This document shows positions 19,797 to 56,209 of a stretch of 64,000 nt of DNA, piece by piece (the stretch's first letter is position 1; the number at the start of each line of letters is the position of its first letter). The stretch comes from a virus. The notes beneath the pieces are model-generated. The model was not told where the DNA came from. It saw only the letters and a list, made by a program, of their open reading frames with translations, and ran no database searches. Location of the stretch: IMG/VR virus record IMGVR_UViG_3300017991_000091, positions 20,030 through 84,029 of that record. One strand, 5' to 3'. Position numbers and translations under genes: made by a program.

Positions 19797-20292
19797 TGAA
19801 ACTGGTAACATACAAATGAAAAATGGACTGACCTCTATCCTAAGATTTGTTCCAAAACATTTTCTCTGGAATATTCGGACAGCTAAGAACAATAGGAATA
19901 AGAGGAGGATCTTCATTGGATCGGAAAAAGGATTGGTTCCAATTAAAATCACCTCTCAGAGATATCGACTATTTGAGAGAAGCCTTATTTGTGTCTCTTG
20001 TGGAAAAATCGGAAATGTACTAAGTGTCGATCAAAGAGAAACCGAAAATGGGAAACCTCTTTTCCATCTTAATCTCTACCATATTGATGGGGAAGAAATC
20101 ACCTTAATGACAAAAGATCATATTATTCCCAAATCAAAAAGGGGGCCAAATCATCAAGACAATTACCAAGTTATGTGCCAACCCTGTAATCAGAAAAAAG
20201 GAAATAAAACCAAAGAAGAGATAAACCATTACAAAAAGAGGAAGAAAAGAAAAAGACAATCATGCAATGAACTGGTTCTAGTAGGAGCTTAA
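19783..20292 (+). CDS. HNH endonuclease
   Basis: 169 residues. The C-terminal 100 residues hold the HNH core: CVSCG, then TKDHIIPKSKRGPNHQDNYQ and CQPCNQKKGN, with His, Asn and His/Lys catalytic positions and two Cys pairs for zinc. Phage HNH proteins of this type are usually homing or DNA-processing nucleases. It starts by overlapping the zinc-ribbon gene. Free-standing, no intron is evident nearby. Confidence 0.8.
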   Translation: MSPINETGNIQMKNGLTSILRFVPKHFLWNIRTAKNNRNKRRIFIGSEKGLVPIKITSQRYRLFERSLICVSCGKIGNVLSVDQRETENGKPLFHLNLYHIDGEEITLMTKDHIIPKSKRGPNHQDNYQVMCQPCNQKKGNKTKEEINHYKKRKKRKRQSCNELVLVGA

Positions 20293-20800: not shown

Positions 20801-20819
20801 ATAGATAGGTGGATATTTG

Positions 20820-22355
20820 ATGATTAAAAAACTAACAACAGAACAAAAAGAAAAAGAAATTCCTATTATTCGGGACAAATGGATTAAAATAGGGTTGAAT
20901 ACTGCTCCCTTCACCCTAAGTGAAGCAACCCCTATTATTTATAGTTTATACGACAATATTCTAAAAAAGAAAAGAGTTCCAATATTTATCTTTAATTGTC
21001 CTATCACAACTTGGTATGGGATAATCTATTTGTATTCTCTAGGAGATCAAGTAAGGAATCAAGTATGGAGTCAAGTAGACAGTCAAGTAGAGAGTCAAGT
21101 AAGGGGTCAAGTAAGGAATCAAGTAGGGAGTCAAGTAAGGAATCAAGTAGAGAGTCAAGTATGGAATCAAGTAAGGAATCAAGTAGGGGGTCAAGTATGG
21201 AGTCAAGTATGGAGTCAAGTATGGAGTCAAGTAGAGAGTCAAGTAAGGGGTCAAGTAGGGAGTCAAGTATGGAATCAAGTAGGGAGTCAAGTAGGGAGTC
21301 AAGTAGGGAGTCAAGTAAGGAATCAAGTAAGGAATCAAGTAAGGAATCAAGTAGTGGATCAAGTAGGGGGTCAAGTAGAGAGTCAAGTAAGGAATCAAGT
21401 AAGGAATCAAGTAAGGAGTCAAGTATGGAGTCAAGTATGGAGTCAAGTAAGGAATCAAGTAGAGAGTCAAGTAGAGAGTCAAGTAAGGAATCAAGTATGG
21501 AGTCAAGTAGTGGATCAAGTAAGGAGTCAAGTATGGAATCAAGTATGGAGTCAAGTAAGGGATCAAGTAGAGAGTCAAGTAGGGGGTCAAGTATGGAGTC
21601 AAGTACCTAACTTTACTTGGCCTTATTTGGATGGTCAATTTTCCAGCCCAATTTTATCCTTCTATGACTACTTTAATATAATTTTGGGTATTTCTTTTCC
21701 AAAGAAACTATGGGAAACCTGGAGGGACACAACTAAATTATCCTTAATCTACCCTTTTGAAAACTTCTGTGTTCTTTGCCAAAAACCAAAAGAAATACAT
21801 TTGGGAGAAAATGGGCTGCATAAAGAAGGTCGTCCTGCAATCACATATCAGAACGGTTGGTCTATTTGGTCCTTAAACGGGGTAAGAGTTCCCCAATGGT
21901 TGGCAGAAACGAGAGACACCAAAATAGATCCAGGAAAAATAAATGAATTAAAAAATGCTGAACAACGTAGGGAATTTGTCCGAAAGATAGGATATGAAAG
22001 ACTACACCATAAATTAGGTGGGAAAGTTCTGGATAAAAAGGAATTATTAATCTCCAATGGAAAAGAAATATTCAAACATCTTTATGAAGTAGTTTATCTT
22101 AATATTGGAAAGGGGTGGACCTTACTTAAAATGGTTAATCCATCCCTTTCCACCAAAAATAATCTGATCTATCATCTTGAAGGATTACCCCCCGAGTGTA
22201 GTACGGTTGAAAAAGCATTACACTTTAGAAAACCAAATTGGTTTAAAGAATATCCAATTGATACAAACGGGAAAGATTGGTTTCAACAAGGAGATGTTGT
22301 AATAGCGCCAAAAGAAAAATGTTCAATAAAACCGCTTCCAACTATTTTAACTTAA
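20820..22355 (+). CDS. DUF6745-like protein with QV tetrapeptide repeats
   Basis: ATG at 20820 (a TTG at 20817 is in frame). Residues 1-75 are an N-terminal region. Residues 76-265 are about 47 copies of a 4-residue unit xQV[RWEG] (for example SQVWSQVR). The C-terminal 245 residues match, from memory, the DUF6745 pattern ([46 protein letters not shown]). The function of that family is unknown. The DNA repeat makes all three forward frames and one reverse frame open. The next gene encodes the usual small partner. Confidence 0.65.
21045..21606. repeat. 12-bp tandem repeat array
   Basis: About 47 tandem copies of a 12-bp unit close to GGAGTCAAGTAW, with frequent A/G and T/A changes at fixed positions, entirely inside the QV-repeat coding region. 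Unit length is a multiple of three, so copy-number changes keep the frame. This is a likely site of replication slippage or recombination. Confidence 0.9.
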
Positions 22356-30314: not shown

Positions 30315-31129
30315 CGTTTAAAATTGGAAATATACCAATTGGTTTAGATTCCCCATTCTTCATCATAGCTGGACCTTGTGTTATTGAAAGTAAGAAGATC
30401 TGTTTGGACATTGCAAGAAGATTAGTTGAAATATCCAAAAGAACTAAAGTCAAGATTATATTCAAGGCCAGCTTCGATAAAGCTAACAGATCAAGCATAT
30501 ATGGTTTCCGAGGGATAGGAAAGGCAGAGGGGATAAAAGTACTCCAAAAAGTGAAGGAGGAAACCAAACTACCCATACTGACAGATGTTCATGAAGTAGA
30601 CCAGGTAGGTCCGGTTTCCCAGATTGTTGATTGTTTACAGATTCCTGCCTTTCTTTGTAGGCAGACAGATTTAATTGTAGCATGTGCAAAAACCGGAAAA
30701 CCTATTAATATAAAGAAAGGACAATTTCTTTCTCCTTGGGATATGAAGAATGTTGTTGAAAAGATTAAATATGTTGGAAACAAAAAGATTCTCATAACCG
30801 AAAGGGGAACCTGTTTTGGATATAACCAACTGATTAATGACATGACATCAATTTCTCGTATTCAAAGACATGGATGGTCGGTTGTTTTTGATGCTACTCA
30901 TAGTGTGCAAAGACCTGGTGCTTTGGGGGCACAAAGTGGTGGAGAAAGAGCATACGCTCCGATCTTAGCTAAAGCAGCAGTTGCCGCAGGAGCTAATGGG
31001 ATATTTACTGAGGTTCATACCCATATTGAAAAATCTAAATCAGATACTGCCACCATTATGCCTATTGAATGGTTGGAAGATCTGATTGTCCAATGTAAGG
31101 AAATTCATAAAATAGTGGGGGGGAAGTAA
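30311..31129 (+). CDS. kdsA: KdsA, 3-deoxy-8-phosphooctulonate synthase
   Basis: 272 residues matching KdsA end to end: IIAGPCVIES, FKASFDKANRSSI, LPILTDVHE, IPAFLCRQTDL, NIKKGQFLSPWDMKN, ERGTCFGYNQL, FDATHSVQRPG. Cys23 in GPC marks the metal-dependent class. It joins phosphoenolpyruvate and arabinose-5-phosphate to make Kdo-8-phosphate for lipopolysaccharide. The start is odd: the frame opens only after a stop at 30305, and the best site is ATA 30311, 7 bases after GGAGG. An ATG here would remove the stop of the RNA ligase. Confidence 0.85.
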   Translation: MAFKIGNIPIGLDSPFFIIAGPCVIESKKICLDIARRLVEISKRTKVKIIFKASFDKANRSSIYGFRGIGKAEGIKVLQKVKEETKLPILTDVHEVDQVGPVSQIVDCLQIPAFLCRQTDLIVACAKTGKPINIKKGQFLSPWDMKNVVEKIKYVGNKKILITERGTCFGYNQLINDMTSISRIQRHGWSVVFDATHSVQRPGALGAQSGGERAYAPILAKAAVAAGANGIFTEVHTHIEKSKSDTATIMPIEWLEDLIVQCKEIHKIVGGK

Positions 31130-31130
31130 A

Positions 31131-32003
31131 ATGGGATGTATCGAAAAGATTTATAGTGTTTCCGCACTTATAGGAACTGGAAAATGTAATGGAAAATGCA
31201 AATTTTGTGCAGCAACTGATCTACGCAAAGAGGTTGGTGTAGTATCCAAGGATTTATATTTTAGAAATTTTGATACTGCGTTAAGATTGTCAGCAAGATA
31301 TGGGGGATGGTCATTATCTTTGACAGGAAGTGGAGAACCATCGGTTGAACCGGAGTGTGTAACTGAAGCATTGGAGCATTATTCTGCTTGTGCTAAGCAA
31401 GGAGCCTATTTTCCAAATGTAAACCTATTTACCAATGGAATATTGTTTGGTGATGGGGAATACTGTAATACGTATCTTCCTTTATGGAGAAAACTTGGTT
31501 TAACTAATGTCGCTATATCAATTCATGATGTAGAGGAAACTGGACAAGCAGAAGCATACAATATAGACTCTTATCCTAATCTTGTGGATATAAAACGCAA
31601 TATTGAAAAACATGGAGTTGGTGTCCGACTTACTCTACTTCTTCATAAAGGAATAGTAGATTCTTCATATACCTATGCAGTAGCTGTAAGTAGATTACTT
31701 GAAAAGGGATTTAACAATATAACCTCCTGGCCTGTGGGGAATCCGGATAACTCAAGAAATGAATTTACTCCTTCTCGATGGGGACTATTTTCCATACGAA
31801 GGTGGTTGAGAAAAAATGCAAAAATGTGTCATGGTCACGCTTGGGGAGGTGGTGTATTTGACTACAATGGGGCGATCTTAAGATACACAGACTACGTAAC
31901 AAAACATAATAGGAGAAAGGATTTTGTTAGACAATTAGTGGTATTTCAGGATGGGACGGTAGCCTACTCCTGGATAAGGGAGGGGGCCCTATGTATGAAG
32001 TAA
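31131..32003 (+). CDS. Radical-SAM enzyme, paralogue 1
   Basis: 290 residues. The cluster motif is Cys19, Cys23 and Cys26 in GKCNGKCKFC (CxxxCxxC), with the downstream TGSGEP (GGE-type SAM motif), NLFTNGI, AISIHD and SWPVGN. It starts after GGGGGGAAG, one base past kdsA. The product shares order and motifs with the next gene, so the two are paralogues. Substrate unknown; proximity to kdsA suggests a sugar or nucleotide substrate but does not prove it. Confidence 0.75.
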   Translation: MGCIEKIYSVSALIGTGKCNGKCKFCAATDLRKEVGVVSKDLYFRNFDTALRLSARYGGWSLSLTGSGEPSVEPECVTEALEHYSACAKQGAYFPNVNLFTNGILFGDGEYCNTYLPLWRKLGLTNVAISIHDVEETGQAEAYNIDSYPNLVDIKRNIEKHGVGVRLTLLLHKGIVDSSYTYAVAVSRLLEKGFNNITSWPVGNPDNSRNEFTPSRWGLFSIRRWLRKNAKMCHGHAWGGGVFDYNGAILRYTDYVTKHNRRKDFVRQLVVFQDGTVAYSWIREGALCMK

Positions 32004-32812
32004 AAATATCCGATCGGGTAAAGAGTCTTTCCATCTTTGTGGGTATGGGAATCTGCAATGCTACTTGTTCCCATTGTGCGGGAATGCCCTTGAGAAAATA
32101 TTCTCCAATAAAAGATGGAGAAATTGATCTTGATTTAATTAAGAAGTTGGTAATTTCTTGCCATAATAAAGGAGCAAGAAATTTGACAATTAGTGGTAGT
32201 GGGGAACCCACCCTATCTCCGGTTTCCTTAACCAAACTTATGAATCTACTATTTTATTTATCTGAAATCGGTTATAAATTTCAATCGATTAATCTTTATT
32301 CTAATGGTATTAGGATAGGGCAAGATCTTCCCTTTTGTGAGAAGTACTTGACTCTTTGGAAATCCCGAGGTCTGTCCACCGTATATGTTACTGTTCATCA
32401 CACTAATGAAAAGGAAAACGCTAAAATTTTTAATGTGCCTTCTTACCCACCACTTAAAGAGGTTTTCAGTAGAATACACCAGACGGAATTGAATTCTCGG
32501 GCCAATTTAATTTTGGGTCGATTGAATATTTCAACATTTAGTAGATTCAAAGAAGTTGTAGAATTTCTTTTCCAGCTGGGAGTATCTAATATTTCAGCAT
32601 GGCCTATCCGGGACCACCATTCAGATGTGGTTGATACATCTCTGATTCCTGATCATAATGAATTGAATAAAATGGTGGATTATTCAAATGAACAAAACAA
32701 ACAAGGAAAGAGGATAAGAATACTTTTAGAAGATTCTAAACTTAGATATAAGTTAGGAGAAAAACTGACCTTATTTCCCAATGGGAAAATATCCAATACT
32801 TGGTGTGTTTAA
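31991..32812 (+). CDS. Radical-SAM enzyme, paralogue 2
   Basis: 273 residues. Cys22, Cys26 and Cys29 (GICNATCSHC) bind the 4Fe-4S cluster; ISGSGEPTLSP, NLYSNGI, VTVHHT and SAWPI correspond in order to paralogue 1. It overlaps its partner by 13 bp. Two adjacent paralogues may form a heterodimer or act on successive steps. Function unknown. Confidence 0.75.
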   Translation: MYEVKISDRVKSLSIFVGMGICNATCSHCAGMPLRKYSPIKDGEIDLDLIKKLVISCHNKGARNLTISGSGEPTLSPVSLTKLMNLLFYLSEIGYKFQSINLYSNGIRIGQDLPFCEKYLTLWKSRGLSTVYVTVHHTNEKENAKIFNVPSYPPLKEVFSRIHQTELNSRANLILGRLNISTFSRFKEVVEFLFQLGVSNISAWPIRDHHSDVVDTSLIPDHNELNKMVDYSNEQNKQGKRIRILLEDSKLRYKLGEKLTLFPNGKISNTWCV

Positions 32813-32823
32813 AGGAAGATAAA

Positions 32824-33345
32824 ATGAATAAACTGTATATTTTAGTTGGGAATATTGGGTCTGGTAAATCCACCTTTGCTCAAAATTTCATTGAAGAAAA
32901 AAGAAAGAAGGGGAAGAAAATCATTTATGTCAGTAGAGACTCCCTCCGATATATGTTTGGAGCAGGTAAGTATAATTTTGATCCAGAGTTGGAGCCACTT
33001 GTCATTCAAGGTACTTTGGACTTACTAAATGGTTTTATGAGAACTGGTATTGATATTGTTCTGGATGAAACAAATATATCCGTTGATCTTAGAAAGGATT
33101 TTATTGATTTAGGAAAGAAGTATCAGTATTATAATATTGCTTTGATTATGCCACGTCTCTTAAAAAAGACCTCTGTGGATAGGAGAATGAAAATTCCACA
33201 TGATATCCGAGACAGAAAGATTTGGGAGAGAGTCTGGGATAAATTTAACGAACAATATGATACTCCTACCATTAAAGAAGGATTTAATGAGATTCGATTC
33301 TTAGAAAAGGATAATGAGCACTTACTGCGCTTTAAAAAATTATAG
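32824..33345 (+). CDS. Polynucleotide kinase-like P-loop protein
   Basis: 173 residues starting at ATG 32824 after AGGAAGAT. The P-loop is GNIGSGKST (residues 9-17), followed by VSRDSLRYMF and VLDETNIS, the order of the T4 Pnk kinase domain. The 3'-phosphatase domain of T4 Pnk is absent. It would phosphorylate 5' ends of RNA for ligation by the RNA ligase at 29094. Confidence 0.75.
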   Translation: MNKLYILVGNIGSGKSTFAQNFIEEKRKKGKKIIYVSRDSLRYMFGAGKYNFDPELEPLVIQGTLDLLNGFMRTGIDIVLDETNISVDLRKDFIDLGKKYQYYNIALIMPRLLKKTSVDRRMKIPHDIRDRKIWERVWDKFNEQYDTPTIKEGFNEIRFLEKDNEHLLRFKKL

Positions 33346-33353
33346 GAAGAAGA

Positions 33354-34412
33354 ATGATCAGAAAATCTACAATAAATCTAAATTATTGTAATATAGGAAA
33401 GAAGAACAAGGTTCTTGATTTCCTAGATAGATACACTGAAGCAGTTAATCAATATATAGATACTCTATGGGAAATAAAAAGATTTACCGGTTCGTTCGTG
33501 GAACGAGAGGTCCTGGATCAGGTGGATTCGCCCCTATCATTTACCGCAAGACAGGGAGCAGCATGCTCTGCTCTCCATATAGTAAAATCTCAAAGGCAGA
33601 GAAAGAAGAAAACGAAACCCACTTTTAGTGGAAAAAGTTTTGAACTTGATCAACGATTCGTTGTGATTCAAGAAGGAAAGAACTCTTTTGATCTATGGAT
33701 TACTATTAAAGGAATGGGTAGGAGATCTGGGAAGCAGTGTTTTGTAAAAATTCCAACCAAAAAGCACAAGCATTTCAATAAGTTTATTCAAGAAGATTGG
33801 AAATTAAAGAAGTCCATTAGAATTAGGAGAAAGGGGTCTGACCTATTTGGAGACCTCTTCTTTGAGAAGGCTGCTCCGGAACCAAAAGAGGAAGGAGAGA
33901 TGATCGGCCTAGATTGTGGATACAAGAAGTTGGCCGTATTGTCCACAGGACAGATGGTTGGGGAGGAACTTGTACAAAAGATTGAAAAGATATCAAGGAA
34001 GAAGCAAGGAAGTAAGGCTTTCTATCGTGCTCTAAAAGAGCGAGATGAATATATCAATAGGGAAGTTAAAAAGATTAAGCTTTCAGATCTAAAGGGGATA
34101 GTGGTTGAAAATCTGAAGGGCATAAAGAAAAGGACTAAAGAAAAAGTGGCCAGGAAGGTGATGAACAAATTACAGAGATGGACTTACCCGTACTTCCTAA
34201 GAAGACTGGAACAAGCTTGTGAGGTAGTTGGCGTCCAATGTCATAAAGTAAATCCAGCCTATACGAGTCAGAAATGTAATCGTTGCGGAAGTATCCATAA
34301 AGAGAATCGTAAAGGTGAGGTATTTAAGTGTATGGAGTGTGGATACACATCGGATGCAGATTACAACGCGTCTTTGAATATCTTGAATCGGTTCCTTACA
34401 GGAATAGAATAA
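33354..34412 (+). CDS. TnpB-type RNA-guided nuclease
   Basis: 352 residues. All RuvC residues are present: Asp187 in IGLDCGYKKLAV, Glu252 in VVENLKG and Asp336 in SDADYNASLNI. A zinc finger CNRCG...CMECG lies between the last two. The protein should be active as a nuclease, guided by RNA from its own 3' end. No TnpA and no left-end repeat is visible; the gene starts nine bases after the kinase gene, with its own AGGAAGAAG site. It has the look of a domesticated gene, not an intact IS605 element. Confidence 0.85.
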   Translation: MIRKSTINLNYCNIGKKNKVLDFLDRYTEAVNQYIDTLWEIKRFTGSFVEREVLDQVDSPLSFTARQGAACSALHIVKSQRQRKKKTKPTFSGKSFELDQRFVVIQEGKNSFDLWITIKGMGRRSGKQCFVKIPTKKHKHFNKFIQEDWKLKKSIRIRRKGSDLFGDLFFEKAAPEPKEEGEMIGLDCGYKKLAVLSTGQMVGEELVQKIEKISRKKQGSKAFYRALKERDEYINREVKKIKLSDLKGIVVENLKGIKKRTKEKVARKVMNKLQRWTYPYFLRRLEQACEVVGVQCHKVNPAYTSQKCNRCGSIHKENRKGEVFKCMECGYTSDADYNASLNILNRFLTGIE

Positions 34413-34413
34413 C

Positions 34414-34446
34414 ATTCGGAGCCTGTTGAAAAGAAAAGATCCGAAT
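34414..34446 (+). ncRNA. Putative omega-RNA terminal hairpin
   Basis: ATTCGGA (34414-34420) pairs perfectly with TCCGAAT (34440-34446) around a 19-base loop, starting two bases after the TnpB stop. TnpB omega-RNA scaffolds run from the 3' end of the gene into a hairpin at the element's right end, and the guide is the next ~16-20 bases. This hairpin is where that structure is expected. The guide would start near 34447. Confidence 0.55.
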
Positions 34447-34507
34447 ATTGTAAATTGATGAAAGGAAAAGGTTGGAAGACCAAATTCTCCTCCTTCGTCC
34501 ACAAATT
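34445..34507. repeat. 63-nt copy of helicase gene sequence at TnpB 3' flank
   Basis: Matches 34901-34963 inside the SNF2-like gene: the first 35 nt are identical (starting ATATTGTAAATTGATG), and four mismatches occur in the remaining 28. Here it is followed by TAG and is no longer part of a gene. The copy begins exactly where the TnpB guide would begin. Confidence 0.85.
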
Positions 34508-34526
34508 CTATTTGTAGTAAAAGATA

Positions 34527-36011
34527 ATGAGAACCTTCGACTATAAAAAACTGATAAAGGAAGAGTTAGATGATATCTTTGGGGATTTCCCATTTAAACT
34601 ATCCCCGATGAGACATCAACTTATTTCCATGGCCTTCGCAGCGGCCTCCTCCCGTTGTGCATTTTTGCATGGTGTTGGTACAGGGAAAACCCTCACGGCT
34701 CTCTGGACAACTCAACTGTGGGAAAATAAGAAAATTCTGGTAGTTTGTCCCTCCTCTGCTTTTAGTGCCTGGGAAAGGGATATCTCCAAGTATACTGACT
34801 ACTCTCATGAATTCCTTTTAGGATCAGGAAAACATCGTCGGTCTCTATTAAAAAAGAAAAGGGATATTTTTATAATCAATTATGAAGGATTAAAAACAGT
34901 ATATTGTAAATTGATGAAAGGAAAAGGTTGGAAGATCAATTACTCCTCCTTCATCCACAAATTTGATTGTATAATACTGGATGAGATTCATAAATGCAAA
35001 AGTTACAAATCCCTTCAAAGTATTATCTGTCATCAGTTATCCAAGCTATCAAAGAATGTAATAGGACTTACCGGAACACCAATTGACAATTCTCTTCTCG
35101 AAGCCTTTAATATCTATAGAGTGATTGATCTCGGAAGAACCCTGGGGACCAGTTTCTTTGCTTATAGGAATAGGTATTTTTACCCCGTGGTATTTGACTG
35201 GAAACTTAAAAAGGGAGCCAAAGAAAAAATCCTGGAACAAATTTCAAAAACATCCATCAGCTTCGACAGAGAAGAATGCTTTGATCTTCCAGAGATTCAG
35301 GAAATAGTCCGGGAGGTAAATCCATCAAAAGGGTATCTGAAACTACAAGACGCGATAATAACTCAACCATCTATTACCCTAAACGGAACCATTGTAAAAT
35401 TGGAACCTACAGAATTGAATGAGGATGAAGATAAGTTTAAAAAACTTAAGTCCCGACTTCTTAGGCAACTACCTTTAGGCTTTCTATATTACAAGACAGA
35501 GGATGGACCGACTCAAACATATTACCTAAAACAAAACCCAAAGATAGAATCCTTAATAGACTTCCTGGAGGATATTTCGGGGAAAGTTATAATATTCTAT
35601 TACTTCAAGGAGGAAGTTAATATGATCCAAAGGGCCTTGGAAAAAGAAAAATATTTGTATTCAAGAATCTATGGAGGGCAAGATTTAAAGGAACGAACCG
35701 AAAGCGTAAAAAGATTTACTCAAGAAGAGAAAGTAAAATGTATCTTAGTCCAACGGGGGGCCGGGGCGGAAGGATGGGATGGAACCGCATCAAGCACTAT
35801 ACTTAATTTTAGTCCGACTCCTTCTCCATTGTCCCGGAAGCAAACTACGGGACGAATCCATCGAAAAGGACAAAAAAATACCTGTCTGGTTGTGGATTTG
35901 ATTATGAAGAGCTCGGTGGAACCTAGAACTTTAAAGAACCGATCTGAGAGGTTTGACTTCGTGACAGAAGTTATGGCCTATATTCAAGAGTATGGGGGAG
36001 TAGAAAAATGA
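34527..36011 (+). CDS. SNF2-like (superfamily 2) helicase
   Basis: 494 residues with motifs in order: GVGTGKT (49-55), a DEIH box in CIILDEIHKC, LTGTPIDN, then QRGAGAEGWDG and QTTGRIHRKGQ. It is an ATP-dependent DNA translocase that may act at forks or displace proteins. It lies directly downstream of the TnpB hairpin, and its codons near residue 125-146 are the source of the 63-nt copy. Confidence 0.85.
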   Translation: MRTFDYKKLIKEELDDIFGDFPFKLSPMRHQLISMAFAAASSRCAFLHGVGTGKTLTALWTTQLWENKKILVVCPSSAFSAWERDISKYTDYSHEFLLGSGKHRRSLLKKKRDIFIINYEGLKTVYCKLMKGKGWKINYSSFIHKFDCIILDEIHKCKSYKSLQSIICHQLSKLSKNVIGLTGTPIDNSLLEAFNIYRVIDLGRTLGTSFFAYRNRYFYPVVFDWKLKKGAKEKILEQISKTSISFDREECFDLPEIQEIVREVNPSKGYLKLQDAIITQPSITLNGTIVKLEPTELNEDEDKFKKLKSRLLRQLPLGFLYYKTEDGPTQTYYLKQNPKIESLIDFLEDISGKVIIFYYFKEEVNMIQRALEKEKYLYSRIYGGQDLKERTESVKRFTQEEKVKCILVQRGAGAEGWDGTASSTILNFSPTPSPLSRKQTTGRIHRKGQKNTCLVVDLIMKSSVEPRTLKNRSERFDFVTEVMAYIQEYGGVEK

Positions 36012-36994
36012 AAATCAATGAACCCATTACATGTTTAGGAAGATTCCAAGATGAAGATGGAACCGAAAAATTTGTTTTTGAAGTAGAGGACAAAGGGATT
36101 ATTGAAGTTGCCTGGATAAAAAATAAACTTGGGATAGACGTTCTATGTCTCCCCACCCACTACTATTGTACACTAGGATGTAAATTTTGTCATCTAACCC
36201 AATCAAACGATAGAATAAATAATATGGGATCGATAAGTGTCTTGGATCTATATCCCATAATTCAATGGATCAATTCTCGATATCTTACAAACGAAAAATG
36301 TCTCCTTTCCTTCATGGGAGTTGGAGAACCTCTTTTCAATCCACATCTTATTTTAGGCATTTATAAAATGCTTAATGATGATGAAAAGAAGAAAATGTTT
36401 TCCATTGCCCTCTCCACTATAGTACCAGAACAAAGAATCCTGGGTGCGGCGATACATACAATTTTACAAGAAAAAGTTCCAACTAAAATACATTTTTCTT
36501 TGCATTCTCCTGATTTAAGTTCCCGAAGAAACCTTCTTCCAAAATCATGGATAAAAATAGATCCTGCACTGCTACGATTATATGATTACGCAACTTTGTG
36601 CTCTAATGAGGTTAAAAAGAATCTTTCAATTTTCCATGATGGGGATTGCTTTCGAGAACTTTGTTCAGAGATTCACTACACTCTAATTGATGGGATAAAT
36701 GATTCAGAAGATGAATATTTTCTACTGAAAGAGTTGGGGCAAAAGTTCCACATCCCATTAAAATTTTTAAAATTTAACCCAATCGGTAATTTAAAAAGAA
36801 GTCCTAAAGAGGAATTGTGGATCAAAGAACTAAAGAAGGAGTATGAAGCCAAAGTATCTGCCTATTCTCCTCCGGGTTCAAACATTGGTAGTTCTTGTGG
36901 TCAGTTCACCAAGCATTACTATTTAGGTTGTAAAGATGATAAGGAAAGAGAGGAATTTGAAACCTGGAAAAAGATGTATCGAATAGATCTGTGA
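36008..36994 (+). CDS. RlmN-like radical-SAM enzyme
   Basis: 328 residues. The cluster is Cys54, Cys58 and Cys61 (YYCTLGCKFCHL). The two extra catalytic cysteines of RlmN and Cfr are also kept: Cys47 (seven before Cys54) and Cys297 in SSCGQF. GVGEPLFNP and the IHFSLHSP region fit the family. The N-terminal helical domain of RlmN, about 100 residues, is missing, and the N-terminus is a short beta domain. Likely methylates RNA adenine at C2 or a related position; the target is unknown. Overlaps the helicase stop by 4 bp. Confidence 0.8.
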   Translation: MKINEPITCLGRFQDEDGTEKFVFEVEDKGIIEVAWIKNKLGIDVLCLPTHYYCTLGCKFCHLTQSNDRINNMGSISVLDLYPIIQWINSRYLTNEKCLLSFMGVGEPLFNPHLILGIYKMLNDDEKKKMFSIALSTIVPEQRILGAAIHTILQEKVPTKIHFSLHSPDLSSRRNLLPKSWIKIDPALLRLYDYATLCSNEVKKNLSIFHDGDCFRELCSEIHYTLIDGINDSEDEYFLLKELGQKFHIPLKFLKFNPIGNLKRSPKEELWIKELKKEYEAKVSAYSPPGSNIGSSCGQFTKHYYLGCKDDKEREEFETWKKMYRIDL

Positions 36995-37019: not shown

Positions 37020-37679
37020 ATGAAAGATATGATAAAAGTAAAGGCCCAAAGGACCAACTGTCTCACCAATGTAGTGATTGATGTGGAGTTGGTAGTTGTC
37101 AAAAAGTACAATGACTACCTAAATTCTCATTGGATCAGCATTGAAGAAGGGGGAGTTACTGGGTTCGAGAGTATGAGGTTTGATCTTATACCTGCTACTC
37201 TGGCAGACCGGAATGGTTGGTTAGCTTGTGCAGGAACCCCCAACCAGTGGGATAAGTTATTCATTCCCGGAGAGGAGATGAAAAAGATCTATGATTATTT
37301 CTCGGGAAATTTAAAGGAGGAAGAGGTTTCTGAGGAGCTGCCAGAGGAGAAGGAAGAAAAGATGATGGGAACTGACAATACGATTGTGTCTTGTTCTGGG
37401 GGTAAATACACTTTTATCCTTGAAGAAGGAGATTGGAGAGTCCGAGTCGATCGTCATGGGGAGCCTTGGTTGAAGATAGAACAAGGGCATAAGGCCGTGT
37501 CCAATCTGGTTTTAGAGATGTTGGAAGTAAAAGAGGCTTTAGATAAATCTGTCAAATTACAATCCCATTACGCAAAACTTCTTAATCAATATGATGGGAG
37601 AGAAAGAATATGTTTTTCTAATGAGGAAGAGTGGTTGAAAGAACTTAGAAAAGGAAAAAGAGGAGTAAATGATGAATAA
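37020..37679 (+). CDS. Hypothetical protein, 219 aa
   Basis: Two domains separated by an acidic linker (KEEEVSEELPEEKEE, residues 98-113). The C-terminal part is beta then helical (YTFILEEGDWRVRVDRHGEPW). An internal start (ATG GGA, near 37366) follows the linker. No family recognised. Overlaps folE by 11 bp. Confidence 0.45.
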   Translation: MKDMIKVKAQRTNCLTNVVIDVELVVVKKYNDYLNSHWISIEEGGVTGFESMRFDLIPATLADRNGWLACAGTPNQWDKLFIPGEEMKKIYDYFSGNLKEEEVSEELPEEKEEKMMGTDNTIVSCSGGKYTFILEEGDWRVRVDRHGEPWLKIEQGHKAVSNLVLEMLEVKEALDKSVKLQSHYAKLLNQYDGRERICFSNEEEWLKELRKGKRGVNDE

Positions 37680-38229
37680 AGATCAAATGAAAAAGGGAAT
37701 TGAGCTTTTTCTAGAAGGAATGGGATTAGATTTAAATGATCAACATCTCCTTCGAACCCCAGAAAGAGTTGTCAAAGCTTGGACCCAAGAATTTGGTAAA
37801 GGTTATTTTTTTACTGAAGAGGACATACAAAATATTTTATCGGTTGATTTTGCTGAAGACTGTGATGAGATGGTTGTGGTAAAAGACATTCCTTTTACTT
37901 CTCATTGTTCGCATCATATAGTAAAATTCTCTGGAATTGGCAAGATTGGATATGTCCCGAATAAAAAGGTTGTTGGACTTTCAAAACTTGGACGAGTTCT
38001 AGATGTTTTTGCTTGCAGACTTCAAGTCCAAGAAAGACTCACAAATCAGGTTGCAGAAACTATTATGAAGTATTTAGATCCTTTGGGGGTAGGAGTTGTT
38101 CTTGAAGCTTCCCATTCCTGCATGTGCGATAGAGGTGTTAAAAAGGTAGGAAGTAAAATGGTTACTAGCTGCCTTCTGGGTAAAATGAGAACGGATAAAA
38201 TGATGAGACAGGAGTTTATGGACTTATAA
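37669..38229 (+). CDS. folE: GTP cyclohydrolase I
   Basis: 186 residues covering the full FolE-type fold. The zinc ligands are Cys80, His83 and Cys151 (HCSHH and SCMCDRG). KVVGLSKLGRV, ACRLQVQERLTNQVA and GVGVVLEASH are the usual substrate-site motifs. It converts GTP to dihydroneopterin triphosphate, the first step toward preQ0 (and folate). With queE, queC and the DpdA-like gene it makes most of a 7-deazaguanine pathway. Confidence 0.9.
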   Translation: MMNKDQMKKGIELFLEGMGLDLNDQHLLRTPERVVKAWTQEFGKGYFFTEEDIQNILSVDFAEDCDEMVVVKDIPFTSHCSHHIVKFSGIGKIGYVPNKKVVGLSKLGRVLDVFACRLQVQERLTNQVAETIMKYLDPLGVGVVLEASHSCMCDRGVKKVGSKMVTSCLLGKMRTDKMMRQEFMDL

Positions 38230-42166: not shown

Positions 42167-42480
42167 TGCCATATATAAAACCAGAAGAACGAGAATTCTA
42201 TGATAATCTAATCGAGAATATTATAGATCAGATTTTTTTGTTTGGGATTTCTGAATTCGATAGAAATGATTGGAAAGGGCATCTTAACTACATCATTTCC
42301 AGATTGTGTCATGAAGTAATTAAGAAAAGAGGCCTTCGCTACCATACTTGCAACGATGTTATTGGGGTCCTAGAATGTATCAAACAAGAACTCTACCGAA
42401 CTGTGATTGCCCCATATGAGGATAGGAAGAGATCCGAAAATGGTCCAGTTAGTGAATTGGATTTTGTGGAGGATGAGTAA
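42166..42480 (+). CDS. Hypothetical protein, 104 aa
   Basis: Helical (YDNLIENIIDQIFLFG, GHLNYIISRLCHEVIKK, ECIKQELYRTVIAPYED). The pattern resembles small phage proteins that contain a YRT-V-APYE-like motif. It overlaps queE by one base. Function unknown. Confidence 0.5.
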   Translation: MPYIKPEEREFYDNLIENIIDQIFLFGISEFDRNDWKGHLNYIISRLCHEVIKKRGLRYHTCNDVIGVLECIKQELYRTVIAPYEDRKRSENGPVSELDFVEDE

Positions 42481-43199
42481 TGACTAAACTAAACGTACAA
42501 TCTATCTTCCATAGTATAGACGGGGAGATTAATGGTTTTCTTGGGGCGGGACAATTCTCAACTTTTATACGTCTGAAAGGATGTAATTTGCAATGTGCAT
42601 ATTGCGACACAGAATATTCCCAAGAATTCCAACCCTATAATTGGATGACAATCCAAGAAATAATTAATGAAGTTCGATTCCCTAAAATAACAATTACTGG
42701 GGGAGAACCCTTAGAACAACAAAAAGGACTGGAAGCACTTATCATCCAACTTCTATTTTCAAAAGGAATTGAATATACTATTTCTGTCGAAACGAATGGA
42801 TCAATGGTTCCTTCTCTTTTTTGGACAAGAGTACGATATATAGTGGACTTCAAGTTGCATTCGTCCGGTATGTCGGATAAGATGAATCCCGCTGCCTTTG
42901 ATTCCTTGAGAGAAGAAGATGTGATCAAATTTGTGGTTTCCGATTGGGACGACTATGATCAAATGGTTGAACTTGTACAATCTAATCCTCAATGGAAAGC
43001 AAAGACAGCAGTTAGCCCAGCTATACAGATTATACATCCAACTGTTGAATCCGAAGAAGAGTATGTTGGTATTCTTCCAGCCGTTGATTTGGAATGGCCC
43101 AGAAAGTTATTGGACCGGACAATGCAAGATGGGTATGTCAATTCCTTCTCGTTACAAAATCATAAAATTATGTGGCCAGGGACCACTGAAGAAAAATAG
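42480..43199 (+). CDS. queE: 7-carboxy-7-deazaguanine synthase
   Basis: 239 residues. Radical-SAM cysteines Cys35, Cys39 and Cys42 are in GCNLQCAYCDTEY, preceded by SIDGEINGF (typical of QueE) and followed by TITGGEPLEQ and SVETNGS. It makes 7-carboxy-7-deazaguanine, the intermediate before QueC. The substrate, carboxytetrahydropterin, is made by QueD, which is not in the window. Confidence 0.9.
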   Translation: MTKLNVQSIFHSIDGEINGFLGAGQFSTFIRLKGCNLQCAYCDTEYSQEFQPYNWMTIQEIINEVRFPKITITGGEPLEQQKGLEALIIQLLFSKGIEYTISVETNGSMVPSLFWTRVRYIVDFKLHSSGMSDKMNPAAFDSLREEDVIKFVVSDWDDYDQMVELVQSNPQWKAKTAVSPAIQIIHPTVESEEEYVGILPAVDLEWPRKLLDRTMQDGYVNSFSLQNHKIMWPGTTEEK

Positions 43200-48362: not shown

Positions 48363-49010
48363 ATGAAAATTGTCATAACTCTTAGCGGTGGAGCAGATAG
48401 CACCTTGGCCGCCTTAAAAATGAAAGAAAGATGGCCAGACGCAGAATACTACCCCGTCTTTATCGACTATGGCCAAATCTGTGCAGATCAGGAAAAGAAA
48501 ACCGCCTTTGATCTGGCCAGAAAACTGGACTTCCTTGGGCTTCACATGATTACTCTTGGTAAGATCTGGTCTGGGGGTGGTATGATTGATGGTGAGAGCG
48601 AAGATAATGATGTCTATACCCCCGTCCGAAATCTGGCCCTCCTAAGTTGCACAATAGCTTACGCCGAATCAATTGAAGCCGATATTGTAGTTACTGGAAG
48701 CAAGGGCCATTCAAAGATCCTATCTGAAGAACATAGCTACTATGATAGCACCATTCCCTTTGCTAAGATGATGGAATCCATCTGGTATTACGCCTCAGAG
48801 AACAAAAGGAGAGTTCAAGTTGTTCCTATCCTGGCCGAAGGCCGAAAAGAAACAATGACAAAAGAAGAGGTATATAAAGAGCTTCTACAGTATAATATTC
48901 TGTATAAGGATACTTGGAGTTGTTTTCAGGGAGGACGAGACGAATGTGGTCGTTGTTCCAATTGCCTGGAAAAGGACCGAATATTTCAGAAATTATCCGA
49001 AGGGGAATAA
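48363..49010 (+). CDS. queC: 7-cyano-7-deazaguanine synthase
   Basis: 215 residues. The PP-loop SGGADST is at residues 8-14, and the C-terminal zinc site is SCFQGG-CGRCSNC. YTPVRNL and the LSEEHSYYDS region fit QueC. It converts 7-carboxy-7-deazaguanine to preQ0 using ATP and ammonia, giving the base that DpdA would put in DNA. Confidence 0.9.
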   Translation: MKIVITLSGGADSTLAALKMKERWPDAEYYPVFIDYGQICADQEKKTAFDLARKLDFLGLHMITLGKIWSGGGMIDGESEDNDVYTPVRNLALLSCTIAYAESIEADIVVTGSKGHSKILSEEHSYYDSTIPFAKMMESIWYYASENKRRVQVVPILAEGRKETMTKEEVYKELLQYNILYKDTWSCFQGGRDECGRCSNCLEKDRIFQKLSEGE

Positions 49011-50762: not shown

Positions 50763-51062
50763 ATGAGCGTTGAACATCACGAAAATATTCTTACTGAGAT
50801 CAGTAAATCTGAATTTGAAGATCTCTTTCAACCTGCTTCTCCGGAAGAACTTAAGTCCAGATTGATAGACTACATCAAGTCCGTCTGCACTCAAAATCCA
50901 GATGGCACTTGGAGTGCCAGTGGAGATGTAGATCTATCCGAAAGGGGTTTAACTAAATTACCCGTTAAATTCAAGGAAGTAGGCGGACACTTTGATTGTT
51001 CCAACAACAAACTTTCAGTTGAAGAATTAAAGAAAACAATTGATAGACCCTATTTGGATTGA
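50763..51062 (+). CDS. Small leucine-rich-repeat-like protein, 99 aa
   Basis: Residues 55-90 have GDVDLSERGLTKLPVKF and FDCSNNKLS, the L--L--N-L spacing of a single leucine-rich repeat pair. Ends in a short helix. Starts MSVE, like the DpdA-like gene. Might bind a partner protein; function unknown. Confidence 0.5.
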   Translation: MSVEHHENILTEISKSEFEDLFQPASPEELKSRLIDYIKSVCTQNPDGTWSASGDVDLSERGLTKLPVKFKEVGGHFDCSNNKLSVEELKKTIDRPYLD

Positions 51063-51070
51063 ATAAGATA

Positions 51071-52129
51071 ATGAGCGTTGAACGAATCCACTTAGCAAAC
51101 TTAATGACGACTGGATCAAAGAAAGGTATTCAAGGTAGATTCCCTTTCCTGGAAAGAAAAGGAGTATTCACCCTTGAAACTTTCTATAAGGACCGAATAG
51201 TAGGAAACCTCCTCACTGATCATCCAGAAGTTCATGTCCTACTAGATTCCGGAGCATACTCCCTTATCAGTAACGCTATTAAGTTAGGAATGAGTAAACT
51301 TGAGGAAGAAGGAAAGATTCAAGAGTCGGACAAGAAGCAAAGTGGCTCAGTTCAACGAAAAGGAGATGCCCGATCAATAGCAGATTTCTCTTACTTTGAT
51401 ACGAAAGAAGTAAAGGACTTCATGGAAAGATATGTCGAGTTTGTGAACAAATATAAGGACCAGCTCGATATATATGTAAACATTGATGTGATTTTTAATC
51501 CAGAGAGAACCTGGGAGAACCAGAAGTATCTGGAGTCTATGGGTATCCGACCTATGCCAGTCTACCACTTTGGTGAGGATATCAAATGGTTGAAGAAGTA
51601 TATGGATGAATATGAGTATATTGGAATTGGTGGATTAGGACAGGATGTCACAAAGAATAGATTTGTTCTCCATCATGGTGATCCAATATTTTCTCTCCTT
51701 GAAGAGTCCAAGCAGGAATTTAAGACTCATGGATTTGCAATCACCTCTTTGGATTTAATGTTAAGGTACCGATTTTTTTCCGTTGATTCAACCACGTGGG
51801 TCAAGCATGCAGCATATGGAGCTATTCTGGTTCCTCGATTTAAAAAGGACAGAAAGACACCGGACTATAGCAAAACCCCGTATGTTATTTCGGTTTCAAA
51901 TCAATCCAGATTTGGGGACAAGCAAAGGCCCCATTTTACCCAGGATTTATCTCCAGAAGAAGTGACAATAATTTACGACTACTTCGAATCTAAAGGTTGG
52001 ACAGAAGAAAAATTAGGAGAAGATTGGGAGGAAAGGGTCCGTGCCAATATTGTCTACTTTGAGGACTCGAGCGACTATATACGGAATACCCCCCCAAGAA
52101 GAATAAAAATACAGAAGAGATTTTTCTAG
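51071..52129 (+). CDS. DpdA-like DNA 7-deazaguanine transglycosylase
   Basis: 352 residues from ATG 51071 (in-frame TTG 51059 is less likely). It is a TIM-barrel relative of tRNA-guanine transglycosylase: VLLDSGAYS with Asp59, IYVNIDVIFNPERTW with Asp139, PVYHFGED and YIGIGGLG. Phage DpdA proteins of this type replace guanine in DNA with a 7-deazaguanine. The FolE, QueE and QueC genes provide the substrate. The assignment to DNA rather than tRNA rests on family and context. Confidence 0.75.
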   Translation: MSVERIHLANLMTTGSKKGIQGRFPFLERKGVFTLETFYKDRIVGNLLTDHPEVHVLLDSGAYSLISNAIKLGMSKLEEEGKIQESDKKQSGSVQRKGDARSIADFSYFDTKEVKDFMERYVEFVNKYKDQLDIYVNIDVIFNPERTWENQKYLESMGIRPMPVYHFGEDIKWLKKYMDEYEYIGIGGLGQDVTKNRFVLHHGDPIFSLLEESKQEFKTHGFAITSLDLMLRYRFFSVDSTTWVKHAAYGAILVPRFKKDRKTPDYSKTPYVISVSNQSRFGDKQRPHFTQDLSPEEVTIIYDYFESKGWTEEKLGEDWEERVRANIVYFEDSSDYIRNTPPRRIKIQKRFF

Positions 52130-53348: not shown

Positions 53349-53580
53349 ATTTCAGATAAATAGACACTCGGATTGTTTTAATCCAAAAAATGGATTCGCA
53401 AATATGCCTGCAGAATATATGGGGCATTTCTTTAACGGAGGAAGTGAATATGATATGTTAAGTGGTCCTTGTTCTTGTGGTGCTTGGCATACCCAGGAGG
53501 AATGGCCAGAACAACTCCAGTTGGAAGTATTTGGATTCATCTCAGAAAAAGAGTCCGGTACAAAACGAAGATATCAATAA
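53341..53580 (+). CDS. Conserved small hypothetical protein, 79 aa
   Basis: Has GPCSCGAWHTQEEWP, a Cys-rich knuckle, between aromatic segments. Starts within the previous gene and ends 4 bases before the polymerase start. No known function. Confidence 0.5.
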   Translation: MDEFQINRHSDCFNPKNGFANMPAEYMGHFFNGGSEYDMLSGPCSCGAWHTQEEWPEQLQLEVFGFISEKESGTKRRYQ

Positions 53581-53584
53581 TCTT

Positions 53585-56209
53585 ATGGCAAAACAAAAAG
53601 CATTCTTTCTATCTCCCCTTGAAATATATCAGCAAGAGCATCCCGAACTTTTCGAGAAGAAGAAAAGGTCTACTTCCTCTAAACCAAGAAAGGAGAAGAT
53701 CTACAACTGTGACTCTTGTGGATTAAAATCCAAATGTAAGTCCCCTAAAATGCAAAGATATGGAAAGGGAGGAAAGGGCATTCTTATTGTCGGTCTTTGC
53801 CCTGGAAGATCGGAGGATAGGTATGGTATCCCCTTTGTTGGTGCTTCCGGAAAGTTCCTGCGAAGAGCCTTGTCCTACGTAGGAATAGATATGGACAAGG
53901 ATTGTATCAGAACTAATATAGTTCAATGCTTTCCTGGACTGGACAAAAAAGGAAGGGACGTAGCTCCTACAAATGATCAGATTTTGTGTTGTTCATCCAA
54001 TCTTCAGAAGGATATTGAAGAAGTAAAACCCAAACTGATTATTTCTCTTGGGACTAAAGCAATTCAATCCCTTGTGAATACGAAAGGACTATCTTCCTTC
54101 ACTGCATCTGGAACCCATGGATTGGTCTTCCCAATCCAAAAGTACAATTCTTGGGTGGGGTGTTCATATCATCCTTCCTTCTTCTGCAGGCAAAAGAAAG
54201 ACAAAGGCCTAAAAAATGATGACATAGTCTTCATCAATGACATGGCTGATATAATCTCTTTCCTTGACGAGCCACTGCCGAAACCGTTTACCGAAGAAGG
54301 AAACGAGTTAATAACCGATTATCAAGAGGCCATAGATATCTTAGAATATATGTCGGCATCCGAATCCCCGGTTTGTCATGACTTTGAAACAAATATTCTT
54401 TCTCCTTACGAAAAAGAGTCCAAAATCTTAACCGTATCTATTACCAATGAGGTGGACTCTGCTGCTTGTATTCCCATTAATTTCCTTCAGGATGGAAAAA
54501 GGATCTTTTCTGATGATCAGTTATCTAAAATAACGGGGGCATTTTCTCGGTTCCTTAAAAGCGATGCACCAAAAGTAGTCCAAAATTATTATATGGAGGA
54601 ACTTTGGGGAAGAGTTTTCTTTGGCACATCCATGAATAATTTTATCCACGATACAATGGTTACCGCCCATGTTCTAAATTGTCAAAGGGGAACTACTGGT
54701 CTGGGATTTCAGGCATATCAGTTAACCGGACATGATTACAAGAAAATGGTTGACGTGGTTGACCTACAAAAGGAGACCTTAGAGGATACTTCAAACTATA
54801 ATAATTGGGATACCAGGCACACTTTAAATTCTTACTATGACCAACAAAGAAGACTTTCTATTGACCCGGAAAGAAGTAGATTTAATAATTGGTTAACCTC
54901 TTGTCTTCCGTGTCTCGCAAATCTAAAGCATCGTGGAATATTAATTGATCAGAAGATGATGATGGAGCTTTATGATCAATTTACTGAAGAGGGTGAAGAA
55001 CTACTAGAAAAAATTAGGAATACAGATAAGGTCAAAGAGTTCGAATCCATTGAGGATAGTAAAGGAAAAACCAAGAAATTTAATCCAAATTCTGGTCCTC
55101 AGATAGGAAAGATTATATATGATTTATGGAAGGAACCCATCCTTCAGGAAACAGAAAAGACGAAGAAAGGAAAAACGGACGAACCCGCATTAGTAGAGGT
55201 GTCCGGAAAAACCAAGAATGATAACGTCCGAAGATTCATCTCTAACATTCTTCGGTATCGAAAGTGTGGTAGCATACCTAAAAGAGTAAAAACATATAAG
55301 AAGTTCCTTGACCCAAATTCCCGAATCCATCCTACCTTCAATATGAATATTGCCGCTACATACCGGAGTTCAGCGAATGATCCATCCGTACAAAACATAT
55401 ATAAACATGACGAAGAGCTTCAGGTTTTCCGTAAGATTATCATTCCCAGACCGGGAAATTTATTATTGCAGGTAGATTATTCCGGAATGGAAGTGTGTGG
55501 CATTGCAATGATGTCCAAGGATTCAGAACTGGTAAATCAACTCCATAAAATGCGGCAGTGGGATCTGGAACATCCTAATAAAATAAATCCGTGGGATACC
55601 CACAGAAGATGGGCTGTCCTACTATACTCCAAGGCTCTGGAAGAAATTACTAAAGATGATAGATACTACTCTAAGAACGGGTTTATTTTTCCCTCCTTCT
55701 ATGGATCTCAACCTAAGGCGATGGTACGGTATGAGGGGTTCCGAGGAAGAGTATCTCAGGAACATATTGCTAAAGTTTTTGCTGACTTTTGGAAGGAATA
55801 TCCAGATGTTCGAGAATGGCAGAATGATCAAATAAAGTACTATAATGAGAATGGTTGTTATGTGAGTCCTCTTGGATGTAAACGTCCGGGTCCTCTAAGT
55901 TATTATCAATTATTCAATAATAATATTCAAGGATTGGCTTTTCATCTACTCTTAGATGCCTTACAAAGAATTGATGATGAGATGGTTCAAAGAGGAATGG
56001 AATCTCAAGCTTTTTTGGAAACCCACGATTCAATTGATTTTGATGTGGTTCCTGAGGAATTCGAAGATCTGGTTCAATTATCCAATGAGATACTCTTAGC
56101 GAAACGTTTCGATTGGCAATGTGTTCCATTAGCAGTCGAGTGGGAAGCCAGTTGTACTAATTGGTATGAGTTGTCCTCAAAAACTTTTAAGGAGTTGATG
56201 GCAGTATGA
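53585..56209 (+). CDS. DN​A polymerase A with N-terminal uracil-glycosylase-like domain
   Basis: 874 residues from ATG 53585. Residues 45-215 are a UDG-family domain (CDSCGLKSKC, GLCPGRSEDRYGIPFVGASG and CSYHPSFF). Residues 250-400 hold a 3'-5' exonuclease (CHDFETN). Then polymerase motifs: LLQVDYSGMEVCG (motif A), SFYGSQPKAM near a Lys/Arg helix (motif B) and ETHDSIDF (motif C). Such UDG-Pol fusions occur in SPO1-type phages. No 5' nuclease domain; the separate gene at 27816 supplies it. The UDG-like part may be catalytic or structural. Confidence 0.85.
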   Translation: MAKQKAFFLSPLEIYQQEHPELFEKKKRSTSSKPRKEKIYNCDSCGLKSKCKSPKMQRYGKGGKGILIVGLCPGRSEDRYGIPFVGASGKFLRRALSYVGIDMDKDCIRTNIVQCFPGLDKKGRDVAPTNDQILCCSSNLQKDIEEVKPKLIISLGTKAIQSLVNTKGLSSFTASGTHGLVFPIQKYNSWVGCSYHPSFFCRQKKDKGLKNDDIVFINDMADIISFLDEPLPKPFTEEGNELITDYQEAIDILEYMSASESPVCHDFETNILSPYEKESKILTVSITNEVDSAACIPINFLQDGKRIFSDDQLSKITGAFSRFLKSDAPKVVQNYYMEELWGRVFFGTSMNNFIHDTMVTAHVLNCQRGTTGLGFQAYQLTGHDYKKMVDVVDLQKETLEDTSNYNNWDTRHTLNSYYDQQRRLSIDPERSRFNNWLTSCLPCLANLKHRGILIDQKMMMELYDQFTEEGEELLEKIRNTDKVKEFESIEDSKGKTKKFNPNSGPQIGKIIYDLWKEPILQETEKTKKGKTDEPALVEVSGKTKNDNVRRFISNILRYRKCGSIPKRVKTYKKFLDPNSRIHPTFNMNIAATYRSSANDPSVQNIYKHDEELQVFRKIIIPRPGNLLLQVDYSGMEVCGIAMMSKDSELVNQLHKMRQWDLEHPNKINPWDTHRRWAVLLYSKALEEITKDDRYYSKNGFIFPSFYGSQPKAMVRYEGFRGRVSQEHIAKVFADFWKEYPDVREWQNDQIKYYNENGCYVSPLGCKRPGPLSYYQLFNNNIQGLAFHLLLDALQRIDDEMVQRGMESQAFLETHDSIDFDVVPEEFEDLVQLSNEILLAKRFDWQCVPLAVEWEASCTNWYELSSKTFKELMAV

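Follow-up and report, generated by a model that had tools for sequence, protein, structure and literature searches.

What keeps a TnpB nuclease gene in a phage genome once its transposase partner is gone, and what would its RNA guide address? These questions are raised by a locus in the IMG/VR virus record IMGVR_UViG_3300017991_000091, in which an intact-looking tnpB lies directly upstream of a SNF2-type helicase gene. The window analysed here is a stretch of 64,000 nucleotides of that record (positions 20,030 to 84,029), and all coordinates without further label refer to it. The bases that follow the predicted end of the TnpB omega-RNA repeat a segment of the helicase gene, and on balance we consider it probable, from sequence and by analogy, that the locus is a free-standing RNA-guided homing system, the TnpB counterpart of the intronless homing known from phage T4.

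A helicase segment at the predicted guide position

The genes and segments on which the argument turns are the following (numbers with the prefix L denote relatives of the locus, described below):

32824 to 33345, + strand: polynucleotide-kinase-like gene, upstream neighbour (phrog_505, AAA_33)
33354 to 34412, + strand: tnpB, 352 aa, without a TnpA partner (Pfam PF07282, 8.6e-20; invariant residues; AlphaFold model)
34445 to 34509, + strand: copy of a helicase segment, 35 identical nt and then a diverged tail (sequence comparison)
34447 to 34466, + strand: predicted guide of about 16-20 nt, equal to helicase positions 34903-34922 (length from the ISDra2 literature)
34527 to 36011, + strand: SNF2-type helicase gene, predicted target gene (SNF2-rel_dom/Helicase_C, Pfam/PHROG)
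34901 to 34964, + strand: matching segment in the helicase gene, predicted target, with the 5' flank AAAACAGTAT

The repeat between the segment behind tnpB and the helicase gene extends over 77 nt at 87% identity. A sequence-only reading of this DNA had described its core as a 63-nt repeat, and alignment together with a matched control reproduced it: positions 34445-34479 equal 34901-34935 exactly over 35 nt, four mismatches fall in the following 28, and 0/150 random 35-mers from the same locus reach such a match (P=0.000). Within the window this is the longest non-tandem exact repeat; longer ones occur in the 84-kb contig only in a repetitive region on the tail side, which the window does not include. 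The start of the copy coincides with the predicted guide start at about 34447, and the predicted target lies 376 nt past the helicase start, within the coding region. The earlier proposal that the guide is addressed to the helicase gene stands to the extent that the sequence directly past the omega-RNA end is helicase-derived, as judged by position and sequence identity.

The omega-RNA end

The guide start depends on where the omega-RNA scaffold ends, for which four elements are relevant:

34398 to 34402, + strand: 5' arm ACAGG of the omega-RNA terminal stem, within the 3' end of tnpB (conserved in L001 and L002)
34414 to 34420, + strand: pseudoknot 5' strand ATTCGGA, within the terminal-stem loop (pairs with 34440-34446; permutation P<5e-5)
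34422 to 34426, + strand: 3' arm CCTGT of the terminal stem (conserved in L001 and L002)
34440 to 34446, + strand: pseudoknot 3' strand TCCGAAT, scaffold end (covariation)

The 7-mers ATTCGGA, which starts 2 bases past the tnpB stop, and TCCGAAT had been read as the arms of a simple 7-bp hairpin. They are perfectly complementary, but their pairing crosses the conserved stem ACAGG/CCTGT (AGAGG/CCTCT or CATAG/CTATG elsewhere among the relatives), and it is more likely the 3' pseudoknot of an omega-RNA than a hairpin. Across 17 relatives, each locus's own loop and pre-guide segments pair better than cross-paired ones (permutation P<5e-5), and two near-identical copies in LR756500.1 differ by a compensatory change (ATGTGGT/ACTACAT versus ATATGGT/ACTATAT). 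In addition, the conserved right end halts exactly at ...GCTGACTGT and then diverges in L038, L041, L042, L046 and L048, which are five copies from two contigs (3300001580_000013 and _000017). In ISDra2 the pseudoknot is followed by one base and then by the guide (PMC10097598); from this structure and the pseudoknot position, the window guide would begin at about 34447. The computed arrangement places an omega-RNA at the 3' terminus of tnpB, its pseudoknot lying directly 5' of the guide. A guide start at 34427, right after CCTGT in the most conserved stem, was considered and dropped, since the pseudoknot pairing and the sharp right-end boundaries place the scaffold end later. A search of the locus against Rfam gave no relevant match and no right-end element RNA (reRNA) such as RAGATH-18.

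An intact nuclease without a transposase

The window TnpB retains the RuvC-like residues D187, E252 and D336 as well as the C-terminal zinc-ribbon cysteines, and the catalytic acidic residues and zinc cysteines are conserved across the 21 proteins compared, except in L056, where the last segment is absent. Pfam assigns a Cas12f1-like TNB domain, and the AlphaFold model (predicted local distance difference test score 87) matches OsCas12f, AsCas12f, ISFba1 TnpB and ISDra2 TnpB over its full length. Compared with L001, the gene has a proportion of nonsynonymous differences (pN) of 0.18 and of synonymous differences (pS) of 0.75, which indicates purifying selection. Given the conserved residues, the complete modelled fold and the low pN relative to pS, the window TnpB is very probably an active nuclease; inactivation of the TldR type was ruled out, as all three RuvC acidic residues are intact.

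Open reading frame (ORF) coordinates and domain matches agree with the earlier description of an intact, TnpA-less TnpB between a kinase and a SNF2-type helicase. These two genes flank tnpB, no TnpA transposase is present at the locus, and no left end of a transposon is recognisable there. The accompanying label "domesticated" is uncertain: the loss of TnpA is clear, but the behaviour suggests a selfish element more than a recruited one.

Neighbour-gene guides recur among relatives

Profile scans yielded about 28 phage TnpB loci. The window, L001, L002, L006, L033, L034, L035 and L037 form one clade of 8 members with 100/100 support, within which only L037 has a TnpA upstream; it is of the resolvase type and has a MerR-like start, as arranged in IS607 elements. 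Because L037 keeps this pair, we infer that the clade descends from an IS607-type transposon and that TnpA was lost in the other members.

Four of the eight (the window, L033, L034 and L035) carry a guide copied from an adjacent gene, the nuclease gene adjoining the gene that holds the predicted target in each of them; two weaker cases, L011 and L052, lie outside the clade. In every neighbour-guide case the copy starts within a few bases of the pseudoknot end. Tests for matches to neighbours, confined to the 160 nt upstream of TnpB, gave P=0.000 for L033 and L034, with P=0.015 in L011 and P=0.033 in L052; the combined P for 26 loci is 2e-4.

By its sequence, L035 is the window's pattern found independently. 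There, 36 nt that begin at the guide boundary recur unchanged inside the next gene, some 710 nt farther downstream, and behind them come about 33 nt with four mismatches (about 12% divergence); the target gene directly precedes a gp32-like gene and appears to occupy the place that gene 59 has in T4. In both the window and L035, identity is complete over the guide-proximal 35-36 nt, while beyond them synonymous and nonsynonymous sites have diverged to a similar degree (hypergeometric P 0.034, 0.047), and the diverged tails lack coding constraint (in the window copy, 1 synonymous change per 11.2 sites and 7 nonsynonymous changes per 57.8 sites).

L033 and L034 show another arrangement, in which the guide comes from a displaced gene end. 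The gene upstream of TnpB in L033 (1138 aa) ends in WKHKKDPEKLRQLLEEKDKQEEIEETCKALALDS and a stop, and past TnpB and the right end the sequence reads WKNRKDPEKLRQLLEEKDKQKEIDETCKALALEE with its own stop; this second end repeats 34 codons from the 3' end of the upstream gene, stop included, and a 47-nt match lies within it. Between the two ends, 19/19 synonymous sites differ and 7/83 nonsynonymous sites do; because all synonymous but few nonsynonymous sites differ, the sequences indicate that the two ends stem from two phage lineages. In L034 the upstream gene is regA, ending in YNLGKYHKKVENK and a stop, and the guide flank reads HNLGKYHKKSENIRITGV and a stop. Two diverged ends thus flank TnpB in both loci, and we suggest that the element supplied a replacement 3' end while the displaced original became the guide, an order of events that would have left the carrier immune. 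The anatomy of L033 is consistent with a past transfer event. The locus's own target has diverged from the guide in L033 and L034, and matches it perfectly in the window and L035.

Several minor observations concern these loci. The match to the neighbour reaches 2-5 nt into the pseudoknot strand in the window, L033, L034, L035, L011 and L052, and in these six guide-neighbour pairs 20/24 of the last scaffold bases equal the target flank, which may be an insertion-site core or microhomology. At 730-1042 of L035, two tandem copies of the tnpB 3' end and omega-RNA scaffold each have a different flank, a possible two-guide TnpB locus. The apparent target of the L006 guide, 5 kb away, is at chance level, and a thyX match in SRB7757 (16/17) was not counted, lying mostly within the scaffold. 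Four TnpB copies occur in the phage contig G005 (L060-L064) and two in the phage contig G006 (L065-L068), about 80% identical and all with different guides; a short MerR-like helix-turn-helix ORF (KLSEYA..) overlaps at least two of these copies at their start. Neither these copies nor copy B of LR756500 has a guide match above chance in the sequences examined.

Probable RNA-guided homing and its alternatives

The mechanism that we favour would run as follows. A TnpB descended from an IS607-type transposon, now free-standing and without TnpA, would be expressed together with a pseudoknot-terminated omega-RNA at the 3' end of its mRNA, in which the bases from 34447 onward would direct it to the helicase gene next door. 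When such a phage and a relative without the locus infect the same cell, the relative's helicase gene would be cut. Repair with the TnpB-carrying genome as template would then transfer TnpB and its flanks to the relative; alternatively, the relative's allele would be excluded. The RNA guide would take the role that protein-DNA recognition has in SegF-type enzymes, and no intron would be needed. More broadly, and short of probable in our view, the phage TnpA-less TnpB clade might consist of re-addressable homing elements, some with a recoded rescue 3' end that gives immunity, amounting to a natural "cleave and rescue" drive; each guide would then be acquired when a fragment of a neighbouring gene is copied to the position beside the omega-RNA.

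Several points weigh against homing at this locus. The window guide matches the phage's own intact helicase gene perfectly, so the phage's own genome might be cut if the enzyme is active; a non-permissive target-adjacent motif (TAM), DNA modification or an unused guide are possible ways for the helicase gene to escape. The target flanks resemble the pseudoknot end and give no consistent TAM motif, and a TAM is not derivable because no empty site was found. Searches turned up no close relative whose kinase-helicase junction is empty: the kinase query matched nothing. The query with the L033 gene matched only itself. A search with regA returned 80 homologues; the 28 looked at have diverged too far to be compared at the DNA level but bear out the natural C-terminus (KYN[IL]GK). 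A DNA-level search among phages gave no match. The only helicase relative found, L003 (62% identical), has neither TnpB nor the 63-nt copy and is too distant to stand in as an empty allele; the arrangement that would have told against the earlier proposal, a 63-nt copy without TnpB, was not seen. Furthermore, the guides of about half of the clade (L001, L002, L006 and L037) show no copy elsewhere, the P values of the identity gradient (0.034, 0.047) are modest, and the permutation P for the pseudoknot (<5e-5) is optimistic, as several of the 3' strands were picked by eye for complementarity.

The main rival is that the repeat is a scar of duplication or rearrangement, in which the 63 nt reached the upstream position either with a TnpB element that had once inserted in a copy of the helicase gene or by template switching in the course of repair, and do not now serve as a guide. 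The right junction is exactly what an IS607/IS605-like insertion into the helicase gene would leave, the tail of the window copy is free of coding constraint, and L035 has a second, nearly identical copy of the right end followed by the native leader, as from a template switch. Against this, the same junction occurs in at least four independent clade members, each time at the guide boundary, both internal copies show no divergence over their guide-proximal 35-36 nt, and the displaced, separately diverged gene ends of L033 and L034 are left unexplained. Because TnpBs of the clade recur with guides from adjacent genes, we favour homing over a lone scar, which we regard as rather unlikely. The same anatomy would also be expected if TnpB were solely a weapon that cuts co-infecting relatives at the helicase gene and excludes them without copying itself, and the present data do not separate the two; the internal-copy targets do lie in or beside replication genes (the helicase gene, and the gene next to a gp32-like single-stranded DNA-binding protein gene). 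The replacement of the neighbour's end along with TnpB in L033 and L034 points instead to past insertion by repair, and interference as the sole function seems improbable. Very improbable, in our judgement, is a regulatory role in which TnpB and its omega-RNA bind the phage's own helicase gene and tune its expression, like the nuclease-dead TldR, even though the perfect match to a gene of the same operon would then be intended and the TldR that regulates flagellin is phage-encoded (PMC13418256). TldRs are defined by the loss of the RuvC residues, all of which the window TnpB and its relatives retain under purifying selection; moreover, the target lies well inside the coding region, and the relatives' guides address unrelated genes.

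Relation to known systems

The window TnpB resembles the TnpBs of IS200/IS605 and IS607 elements (ISDra2, ISFba1) in its fold, in its RuvC and zinc-ribbon residues and in its predicted omega-RNA, which lies within the 3' portion of tnpB and has a pseudoknot ahead of a guide taken from the right flank (PMC10097598). In contrast to those elements, it has no TnpA, and the flank serving as its predicted guide is copied from a neighbouring gene, which the genome keeps intact at another place. Cas12f proteins (OsCas12f, AsCas12f) are its best structural and profile matches, but no CRISPR array is seen beside the window gene, and the guide would be part of the tnpB transcript. TldRs are likewise TnpA-less TnpBs with a guide to a specific gene and with phage-encoded cases (PMC13418256), differing in their lack of the nuclease residues. 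In T4 intronless homing, the gene cut by a free-standing endonuclease (SegF, SegG) is a neighbour of the endonuclease gene, which spreads through repair with co-conversion at a distance (PMC2988022); as in the window, the endonuclease gene lies beside, not inside, the gene to be cut, whereas recognition in the window would be RNA-based and could be re-addressed by copying a short sequence beside the gene. A gene drive has been described for a plasmid TnpB, whose guide cuts copies without the element (Mears et al. 2025, PMC11870625). That TnpB goes with a transposon, whereas the clade described here is TnpA-less, phage-borne and equipped with neighbour-gene guides and, in L033 and L034, replacement ends, by which these two loci resemble natural gene drives carrying a recoded rescue end.

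Neighbour-gene guides in phage TnpBs are not described in the literature searched, which left out subscription papers and most preprints. If the homing reading is true, the locus unites phage homing endonucleases with the RNA guidance of TnpB, a pairing not found in that literature. Homing specificity would then shift by the copying of about 20-35 bases, without evolution of a new DNA-binding surface, and there would be a selective reason for the persistence of TnpB in phages without TnpA. The clade supplies candidate guide-target pairs.

Other features of the contig

The 84-kb contig encodes a T4-type portal, a PolA-type polymerase, RecA and a clamp loader. Three radical SAM genes surround the TnpB locus (31131-32003, 31991-32812 and 36008-36994), and a 3-deoxy-8-phosphooctulonate (KDO8P) synthase gene, an unusual phage auxiliary gene, lies at 30404-31129 (NCBIfam, above cut-off). 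Genes for FolE (GTP cyclohydrolase I, 37669-38229), a QueE-like protein (42480-43199), a QueC-like protein (48363-49010) and a queuine tRNA-ribosyltransferase-like protein (phrog_887, 51059-52129) likely form a 7-deazaguanine pathway; 7-deazaguanine modification of the DNA by a DpdA-like enzyme could possibly bear on self-protection from TnpB. The ORF at 53462-56209 is a fusion of a uracil-DNA-glycosylase-superfamily domain with a family A DNA polymerase that has a 3'-5' exonuclease domain, and the ORF at 20817-22355, with a DUF6745 match, contains a GAATCAAGTAAG-like tandem repeat at 21308-21417.
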